From Catenulispora sp. EB89 (GTDB lineage Bacteria > Actinomycetota > Actinomycetes > Streptomycetales > Catenulisporaceae), in assembly GCF_041261445.1 (NCBI RefSeq), contig NZ_JBGCCU010000009.1, positions 124,001-188,000 of the forward strand: a stretch of 64,000 bases of DNA, written 5' to 3'. Below the pieces are notes generated by a model. The model saw nothing but the letters and a program-made list of their open reading frames with translations. It did no database searches and was not told the origin of the DNA. Both the position numbers and the translations under genes were made by a program. Below, in pieces: positions 61,833 to 64,000 of this stretch (positions are counted from its first letter, which is position 1; the number at the start of each line of letters is the position of its first letter).

Positions 61833-62491
61833 CCCTCCGCGTCCTGGTCGCCGACGACCAACACCTCCTGCGCGCCGGCATCAGCGGAATCCTCCGCGCC
61901 GCCCCGGACATCGAGGTCGTCGGCGAGGCGCGCGACGGCGAGGAGGCCGTCGAGCTCGCGCAGACCCACCACCCCGACGTGACCCTCATGGACATCCGCA
62001 TGCCCGCCGTCGACGGCATCGAGGCCACCCGCCGCATCGTCGCCGCCGCACCCGATGCCAGGGTCCTGATCCTGACCACCTTCGATCTCGACGCCTACGT
62101 CTACGATGCGCTACGCGCCGGCGCCAGCGGCTTCCTCCTCAAGGACACGCCGCCCCGCAAGCTGATCGAAGCCGTCCGCACCGTCGCCGCCGGCGAAACA
62201 CTCCTCGCCCCGGCGATCACCAAGCGCCTCATCGCCCGCTTCACCGCCCACCCCATCACTCCCGCGCCGACCCCGGAAGACCTCAGGGTCCTGACCGACC
62301 GCGAACGCGAAGTCCTCGCGCTCGTCGCCGAAGGCCTGACCAACGACGAGATCGCCCGCCGCCTCTACATCGGCCAGGGCACCGCCAAGACGCACGTCCG
62401 CAACCTGCTCGCGAAGCTGGGCGCGCGCGACCGCGTCCACCTGGTGATCCTTGCCTACCAGACCGGGCTCGTCGAGATCGACAGGCGCTGA
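61829..62491 (+). CDS. NarL/FixJ-type response regulator
   Basis: This 220-residue regulator has VADDQ, Asp in VTLMDIRMPAVDG, LTTFD, FLLKD and LuxR-type HTH LTDREREVLALVAEGLTNDE. It is closely similar to the regulator at 34.9 kb (both share FLLKDTPP and a GxGTAKTHV-like recognition region), pointing to duplication of the exporter-sensor module. It is followed by the long palindrome. Confidence 0.94.
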   Translation: MTLRVLVADDQHLLRAGISGILRAAPDIEVVGEARDGEEAVELAQTHHPDVTLMDIRMPAVDGIEATRRIVAAAPDARVLILTTFDLDAYVYDALRAGASGFLLKDTPPRKLIEAVRTVAAGETLLAPAITKRLIARFTAHPITPAPTPEDLRVLTDREREVLALVAEGLTNDEIARRLYIGQGTAKTHVRNLLAKLGARDRVHLVILAYQTGLVEIDRR

Positions 62492-62562
62492 CCGTTACTC
62501 CGGCGGCGTGACGAACTCGACGTCGTCGGCGCGCGCGAGCAGCAGCGTCGCGTCGAACATAT
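62492..62562 (-). other. possible 3' coding remnant next to the palindrome
   Basis: On the minus strand an open stretch reads APDMFDATLLLARADDVEFV then TPPE and a TAA at 62497-62495, with codon use like a real gene. It has no recognisable homology and is interrupted by the palindromic element, so it may be the tail of a gene cut by that element or chance. Confidence 0.2.
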
Positions 62563-63541
62563 CGGGCGCTGCTGACCTATGTGTGGGTGCTGGTGGCGGC
62601 TGCGATTTGTTTGTGGGTTGATAGTCAAGGGCTTTTTTGACGGCTTCGCAGGGTTTTAAGAAGGATCCGCTGGGTGGCGCAGTTCGGTGGTGTGCCGCTG
62701 GTTGTGCTGGCGGCTGGCGGCCGGTCTGGGCACGACCGCGCGCGGGTCTGCGTCACTGCGCATGCGTCGGGTGGGCGGGTGGCGGCCGCGTGTGGTGGGC
62801 ACCTGAAAGTCAAGAGCAGGCGCCTCCGGCGGGGGCACTCGAGACTCTGAGGGATCCCCAACCCCCCGCGTCGGCGGCGGTTTGTGTGTTGGTCGCCGAG
62901 TCCCGGATCCCTCGTCGCTGTCGTCGCCCGGAGGGAACCAGCCCGGCCTGGCGGGGTAAAGCCGCATCACACGCTGCTGTGGTCGGGCTGCGTTCGGCCG
63001 GACACCGCCAGTCCGGGATGGTTGTGCAAGCACCGCCGACAGCGACGAGGGATCCGGGACAACCCCACCTGTGGGAAGGATTCCCGCGTCTTGGGCACGG
63101 CACGTCACCTCCTGCAGGTGTGCGCGCCCGGGTGGACCGTGTCCACACCACAGGCCGGGGTTGTCCGGGGAACCCGGGACATAGGCGACCACAAGCAGTG
63201 TCCGGCAGCAGACAGCGCGGCCCCCCTCCCCGGAGCGAGTGCCGCTCGCGGCGCAGGCGTCGCCGGAGGCCCTGTCTTTGACCTTCGGGGCCCACCACGC
63301 TCGACGATTGCCGCCTACGCAACGCATGCGCAGTGACTTGGACCCGCGCGCGGTCGTGCACACGAACAACCGCCAGCCGCCAACGCAACCAGCGGGGCAC
63401 CACCGAACTGCGCCACCCAGCGGATCCTTCTTAAAACCCTGCGAAGCCGTAAAAAGCCCTTAAAACCACCAACAAACCGCACCCGTCGCACCCACCACAC
63501 CCCAGCCACCCACACCCACACCCACACATCAAGCAGGGGCG
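62563..63541. repeat. about 1-kb imperfect palindrome (foldback/MITE-like element)
   Basis: This gene-free region is one long inverted repeat. The clearest arms are 62627-62835 and 63255-63461. Within them 62641-62692 and 63398-63449 are exact reverse complements over 52 bp. Nearer the middle, 62900-62923 and 63037-63060 are exact over 24 bp. Intervening parts match less well, and the right half carries roughly 130 extra bases. Homology fades outside 62627/63461 but GT-rich and AC-rich flanks still mirror each other to about 62563 and 63541. Overlapping reading frames on both strands are mutual shadows without start signals. No transposase and no clear target-site duplication was seen. Confidence 0.88.
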
Positions 63542-63604
63542 CCACATATCGTCACCGTCCCGGCGTACCCGCTCCAACCCGCACGCCGAGACGGTGACGC
63601 CCCA

Positions 63605-64000
63605 TCAGCAGGTCGAACTCGACCCCGTACTGCTGACCTTCACCGCGCCGCCGGCCGTCGTCTTACTGTTCGCGACGCAGTACCCGGACACGTTCTGGAA
63701 CCCGAAGTCGTAAGGACTCTTACTCCCGCGCTGCACCGTGAACCCGTTGAACCCCACCGTCCCGGCCGCGTTCGCGATGACCGCCGGGCGGGCGTCGTCC
63801 GCGGCGAGGCGGACGGAGCTGTCGGTGAACTGGATGCCGTCCACGTTGTGCAGGTACCAGCCGTACGCCGGCCGCGTCCCGATGCTGTTCGGGTTGTAGT
63901 CGCCGTTGTCGCTCGGCACGCCGGTGCCGACCGCGCCGCTGCCGCCGGGCAGCGTCAGGTTCACGCCGTCGAACGTGACGCCGGTGATCCGGTGCGCGGC
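63605..64000 (-). CDS. C-terminal part of a GH28-like (polygalacturonase-type) beta-helix enzyme, runs off the window
   Basis: The visible 131 residues are rich in V/I/G/N strands, with HRITGVTFDGVNLTLPGG, WYLHNVDGIQFTDSSVRL, then ARPAVIANAAGTVGFNGFTV and a Cys near the end (SGYCVANSK). The pattern of short turns matches the last coils of right-handed parallel beta-helix enzymes such as GH28 pectinases, whose 'influenced by tissue context' coils read similarly. The catalytic part lies beyond 64000. The stop is TGA at 63607-63605. Confidence 0.7.
   Translation of the reverse strand, partial: AAHRITGVTFDGVNLTLPGGSGAVGTGVPSDNGDYNPNSIGTRPAYGWYLHNVDGIQFTDSSVRLAADDARPAVIANAAGTVGFNGFTVQRGSKSPYDFGFQNVSGYCVANSKTTAGGAVKVSSTGSSSTC

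Follow-up and report, generated by a model that had tools for sequence, protein, structure and literature searches.

A foldback element with ISL3-like ends in Catenulispora carries a covarying module that probably folds as RNA

Introduction

Among the described systems closest to the locus reported here, typical MITEs are shorter than the element that it contains, and some of the large RNAs HEARO, GOLLD and ROOL are linked to mobile DNA. REPINs and REP sequences are a further known group (PMC3116915, PMC8266576). Such repeats tend to be written off as junk or as assembly breakers. We examined one of them, located near the right end of a 64,000-nt stretch of a Catenulispora sp. EB89 contig (the window), where an imperfect palindrome had been predicted from the sequence. 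In the open-access literature we found no description of the element, although this is weak evidence of absence. When copies of the element were compared, a folded core under constraint could be separated from unconstrained arms, one strand was indicated, and the core was traced in two actinobacterial families.

Results

The original prediction described an imperfect palindrome of about 1 kb, and the palindrome is real, since its exact inverted matches exceed those of 15 shuffles. In the window copy, the longest exact match is 53 nt (62640-62692 with 63398-63450), one more than the 52 predicted, and pairs the outer arms, while the second, 24 nt as predicted (62900-62923 with 63037-63060), forms part of a distinct inner hairpin whose centre is near 62980, where the sequence had been said to fold on itself. 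The palindromes are therefore nested. Further exact inverted matches of 19, 16 and 13 nt were detected in 62563-63541, and the longest match in each of the dinucleotide shuffles of this segment (n = 15) was 9-13 nt. The RNA minimum free energy of 62565-63543 was -678, compared with a shuffle mean of -478 (sd 10, n = 12). The element itself is bounded by 62565 and 63543, and is flanked on both sides by ACATATCG. As predicted, it has no coding capacity: for 45 of 46 copies, the window copy included, a GC3-based gene caller placed no coding-like ORF within the element limits, and the one ORF that overlaps element bounds belongs to a partial copy with one end uncertain (L025). The features of the window copy and its neighbours are as follows.

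Stop at 62491, plus strand: left neighbour, a putative response-regulator-like gene (name read from the sequence)
62557..62564, no strand: left target-site duplication ACATATCG, identical to 63544-63551
62565..62587, plus strand: left terminal inverted repeat GGCGCTGCTGACCTATGTGTGGG; 21 matches in the own genome when as many as 3 mismatches are allowed, and none with the pattern reversed
62565..62850 (inner limit approximate), plus strand: left outer arm, pairs with the right arm
62895..63066, minus strand (proposed RNA strand): structured module M1, with covariation; model R1 scores 157.5 bits on minus and 99.1 on plus; helices are the closing stem P1, the small hairpins P3 and Pa, and the long hairpin P2; 5' end near 63066
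63058..63165, no strand: central hairpin M2, whose loop is found in either orientation among copies
63166..63181, no strand: scar of a deleted second module, of which one stem strand remains
63250..63543 (inner limit approximate), minus strand: right outer arm, pairs with the left arm
63521..63543, minus strand: right terminal inverted repeat, GGCGCCCCTGCTTGATGTGTGGG in minus reading, 17/23 identical to the left one
63544..63551, no strand: right target-site duplication ACATATCG, completing a perfect 8-bp duplication
Stop at 63605, minus strand: right neighbour, a large gene (read from the sequence)

Full copies are ordered arm, M1, M2, M1', arm', where M1' is the reverse complement of an M1-like module. 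Two modules are present in 11 of the 12 other full copies, with the left module on the minus strand and the right one on the plus strand, i.e., facing outward, and a single module is found in L016 and in the window copy. Of 13 aligned copies, 11 contain a block of ~230 nt that is missing from the window copy and from L016. Judged by eye, M2 is inverted in four of the 13 (L024, L027, L033 and L034). A diverged relative of the module was also noted inside a larger mosaic repeat (L193 1782-1950), with its stem rewritten and still paired.

The original prediction proposed a search for other copies, and these are numerous. Across the 11.9 Mb and 70 contigs of the own genome, a DNA search gave 160 matches, of which those listed were grouped by hand into ~40 loci. 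Several copies lie at contig ends (e.g., C11:21-532, C18:91-508, C31:1-358 and C55:64-392); assembly may thus have failed at the element, and the copy count may be too low. When 60 genomes, the own genome included, were searched with the best 7 candidates taken per genome, 19 had an element match. All nine same-genus relatives matched, with a weak match in three (E 1.5e-9 to 5.3e-8), as did nine genomes of another family of the same order (E 2.8e-5 to 9.1e-4), and there was no match in four same-family genomes of other genera. Searches for plasmid or phage relatives among distant sequences gave no match. Short versions with both termini also occur, one of 260 bp in the own genome (L179 2359-2618) and one of 281 bp in a relative (G001:C722:29995-30275); neither has room for a full module between the arms.

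Gene context was evaluated for 46 copies from five genomes using the GC3-based gene caller, with the bounds of several partial copies approximate: 22 copies lie between convergent genes, 18 between tandem and 4 between divergent ones, and 2 were undetermined. The window copy is flanked by the 3' ends of a convergent gene pair, whose stops lie 74 and 62 nt away. By eye, the right-hand gene appears to end at the corresponding place in two relatives, and in one of these (G009 C48) modules of the family are directly behind it. The suggestion that the palindrome interrupted a gene was rejected on the basis of this convergent intergenic position and the stops in the two relatives. A consensus scan for promoters of the sigma-70 type found none in or near the window copy.

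To evaluate the module, 80 distinct sequences were collected, two were left out as truncated or mixed, and the remaining 78 were reduced to 54 at 96% identity. In the four-helix structure predicted for these 54 sequences, 98.0% of cells were paired, compared with 89.6% (sd 0.3) in shuffles, 25 of 54 pairs carried double compensatory changes, compared with 13.7 in shuffles, and the covariation score was 0.270, compared with 0.112. In slid controls of the structure, paired cells dropped to 27-45%. The closing stem and the small hairpins exist in several rewritten forms, and the small hairpins and unpaired positions are conserved. Imperfect pairs were then counted as an indicator of strand. On the proposed strand there were 75 G-U and 5 A-C cells (14 vs 4 columns, p 0.031). 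Because the four-helix structure had been predicted on that strand, wobble was recounted on pairs predicted from both strands, which gave 47 G-U and 5 A-C cells (13 vs 4 columns, p 0.049). These p values are modest, and the columns do not represent independent events. From the centre of the element, the favoured strand points outward. Five second-type modules from G004, with one G-T and no A-C on the plus reading, go opposite to this trend.

Model R1 matches each module on both strands, so that distinct modules may number as little as half the R1 counts. With at most 150 candidates scored per genome, R1 gave 100, 135, 107, 19, 32, 19, 2, 22, 66 and 140 matches in genomes G000 (the own genome) to G009, respectively, and three matches in other family members, all in one of four genomes. 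In 394 genomes of the class, searched with the best 7 candidates per genome and stricter filters, R1 matched the own genome and G142 alone; given these settings, absence elsewhere is weakly supported. A comparison with Rfam 15 of the segment 61500-64000 of the window and of four further loci (L232, L266, L268 and L272), at E up to 1, gave no match over the modules tested, and matches elsewhere in those loci fall below gathering. A known Rfam family was rejected as the module's identity on this basis.

A first pattern scan of genome contigs gave no hit, although the own genome and its near relatives were perhaps outside that set. A second scan, of named genomes, returned 12 loci, seven of which are matched by R1 below E 1e-6, in Microbispora, Microtetraspora, Nonomuraea and Planotetraspora. 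R1 scored higher on the predicted strand in all seven (e.g., 69.5 vs 28.5 bits). At L272, the R1 match is at a different place from the pattern hit, and L277 keeps 99 nt of the module with no significant R1 match. The non-actinobacterial pattern loci (L270, L273, L275 and L276; best E 0.12) were taken as chance. In the NCBI taxonomy, Microbispora and Planotetraspora belong to the Streptosporangiaceae; Catenulispora belongs to a different order, the Catenulisporales. Judged by R1 scores and the common order of helices, the modules of Catenulispora and Streptosporangiaceae appear to be homologous.

In the better-preserved relatives, the module is at the start of a repeat of ~480 nt. When 250 Streptosporangiaceae genomes were searched with the best 2 candidates per genome, some match was present in 207, in most cases a short one to the widespread 3' part of the repeat, and at least 440 of the 480 bases were matched in 11 genomes, query genome included. 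Two small ORFs in the 3' part have no Pfam match. In Microbispora, one ~480-nt relative is interrupted by roughly 480 nt of inserted sequence with a 124-aa ORF (L271 1839-2213, minus strand), which has no Pfam match, as if the repeat had acquired a gene.

Of 26 Streptosporangiaceae sequences extracted, 22 were aligned, and four were left out as diverged or truncated. Here, 96.2% of cells in the helices were paired (vs 92.9%), and 13 of 58 pairs were double-changed (vs 5.1). Module energy was -168.7 on the same strand as in the genus set, compared with -132.3 on the other. That strand had 221 G-U and 17 A-C cells (42 vs 13 columns), and the count on pairs shared by both strands was 61 G-U and 16 A-C cells (29 vs 12 columns, p 0.012). 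Prediction and counting of pairs used the same alignments, which favours pairing itself but, in the common-pair count, not one strand.

The outer arms behaved differently from the module. The original prediction saw apparently matching changes in the diverged arms, considered gene conversion between them, and proposed a covariation test across copies. In 13 copies, identity between left and right arms was 0.787 within the same copy, compared with 0.801 between different copies, and 95% of 20,000 permutations of the arms reached the observed value, with one row of the alignment (L034) having a misplaced right end. Arms are thus no more alike within copies than between them, which argues against matching changes as well as same-copy conversion, and both arm-to-arm conversion and arm covariation were rejected. 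Around 62650, both arms carry the same variant in 4 of 13 copies, by eye. Imperfect pairs in the outer arms, which served as an internal control, comprised 220 A-C and 179 G-T cells (79 vs 69 columns, p 0.46), and the arms by themselves gave a lower folding energy on the opposite strand (-51, compared with -30). Selective preservation of pairing, which had been suggested for the palindrome, is borne out by covariation for the inner hairpin but not by the permutation test for the long arms.

These observations bear on the strongest alternative, in which the locus is a foldback element acting at the DNA level, the inner pairing is maintained by quasipalindrome correction (template switching or within-hairpin conversion), and there is no RNA function. 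Such correction would also yield changes on both sides of a stem; rearrangement driven by hairpins is suggested by the inversion of M2 between copies and by the absence of an entire hairpin from the window copy, and in the genus set both strands fold almost equally, with consensus energies of -163.9 and -162.2. Nevertheless, this explanation predicts no strand preference, whereas in both families the imperfect pairs are G-U on one and the same strand. Nor does it account for the conservation of small hairpins and unpaired positions, or for the long outer arms, which in these copies are palindromic too but neither corrected nor biased. We consider it rather unlikely, and favor a module that is selected to fold as a single strand.

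The termini connect this module to a mobile element. Terminal inverted repeats are ~23 bp long, and the two ends of the window copy (GGCGCTGCTGACCTATGTGTGGG and GGCGCCCCTGCTTGATGTGTGGG) are alike at 17 of 23 positions. A degenerate 23-base terminus with one mismatch allowed gave 41 matches in the own genome and 61 across six relatives (10, 23, 20, 4, 4 and 0, respectively), and the reversed control gave 0 in all seven genomes. At the 21 loci with both ends, 8-bp duplications were exact at six (the window copy and five others) and had up to 2 mismatches at 14, the better of two candidate rows being used at five loci, compared with 17 of 640 control pairs, in which left and right flanks were taken from different loci. 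The check for target duplications proposed originally was thus positive, and the duplications at the remaining 7 of 21 loci were poor (3-5 mismatches). Target sites are mostly A/T-rich, e.g., CATTTTGT and ACAAAATG. One sequence found beside elements, CCCTAACAAAATG, is present at 10 places, three of which abut an element, and belongs to another repeat. A second repeat of the own genome (L191-L193, L197-L200) has a TATA-rich core ending CCCTAACAAAATGCC, which foldback elements abut at L194, L195 and L196, and arm-like sequence lies beside the core in at least L193.

A transposase with matching termini had been proposed as a further check. ISL3 transposases were searched in 13 relatives, and the loci returned were scanned for the terminus. 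An intact ISL3 element was found in a same-genus relative (L129 1426-2828), with a transposase of 425 aa (1438-2715; PF01610 at 239 bits, PF13542 and PF14690), ends GGCGCCCCTGACTTATCCGTGGG and GGCGCCTCTGACTCATCCGTGGG, and its own duplication CATTTTTC; an ORF named by eye as an IS110-like transposase (L129 2874-3692, minus strand) adjoins it. The likeness of its ends to those of the window copy is partial, at 17-18 of 23 positions, so that the latter are scarcely nearer to it than to each other (17/23). Transposase remnants in two further relatives (L142 in G009 and L152 in G002) have such a terminus ~75 bp past the last matched codon, and the end in G009 is identical to the left end of the window copy at 21 of 23 positions. 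A candidate partner was seen in relatives, and none was found in the own genome: the 70-contig draft yielded three ISL3 hits, none with the element's terminus, the best of them (L076) has different ends (GGCTCTTCGAAGTT), and a looser end scan of these loci gave noise only. Accordingly, the family may be dormant there, or its partner may be in an assembly gap.

Copies, ends, 8-bp duplications and the similar termini of an ISL3 element found in relatives together bear out the non-autonomous foldback element that was one of the original suggestions, and we regard a transposable foldback element of the ISL3 type as very probable. REPIN-like palindromes mobilised by a REP-associated (RAYT) transposase would also be high in copy number, palindromic, intergenic and genus-wide, but the 8-bp duplications, ISL3-like ends and length of ~1 kb make this origin highly improbable. 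A local inverted duplication without further signal, for which the palindrome alone speaks, is refuted by the ~40 own-genome loci, the matches in 9/9 other genomes of the genus and the target duplications, and the sequence is neither single-copy nor unconserved.

Discussion

We propose that the locus is an ISL3-type mobile element carrying a module selected to fold as a single strand, likely RNA, and assign this explanation as a whole a probability of roughly 0.7. An ISL3-family transposase would recognise the ~23-bp ends and, we infer, move the element in trans, with transposition leaving 8-bp, mostly A/T-rich duplications, often behind genes. The cargo is an inverted dimer of an arm and a ~170-nt module, the latter presumably under selection for its single-strand four-helix fold, with the folding strand pointing outward from the centre. 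The window copy has lost one of its two modules, of which a single stem strand is retained.

Conserved pairing and a wobble bias toward the outward strand suggest that the working form is RNA, and we regard folding of the module as RNA as probable. Whether the module is a new structured-RNA class of Catenulispora and Streptosporangiaceae, amplified as ISL3-type cargo to tens of outward-facing pairs per genome, is in our judgment an even bet. A more tentative idea, which we hold to be on balance doubtful, is that the module serves, at the ends of genes, as a 3'-end or terminator-like element of the transcript, making insertions tolerable. If transcribed, the module would represent a class of RNA absent from Rfam and disseminated by a DNA transposon, and would explain part of the Catenulispora intergenic landscape as well as some contig breaks.

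Comparison with known systems places the element among several of them. Like the large RNAs HEARO, GOLLD and ROOL, as outlined in the account cited (PMC12286853), the module is non-coding and structured, but it is ~170-200 nt long, and the modules tested have no match in Rfam 15. TIMEs, Tn3-derived inverted-repeat miniature elements, are similarly non-autonomous and have inverted repeats; they derive from Tn3 rather than ISL3, and the parts of the source that describe them mention no structured module (PMC4133298). With REPINs and REP sequences, as these are summarised in their sources, the element shares many intergenic palindromic copies per genome without a transposase of its own, but differs in its length of ~1 kb, its inverted ends and its 8-bp duplications (PMC3116915, PMC8266576). 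It most resembles ISL3-family insertion sequences and MITEs, having ends that start with GGCGC as in L129, 8-bp duplications, a matching transposase in relatives, and no genes. The likeness to an ISL3 insertion sequence is seen in the ends only, and a MITE feature that the element misses is a partner with matching ends in its own genome. Compared with a typical MITE, it is longer and more structured, and the majority of its full copies are inverted dimers that contain nested hairpins.
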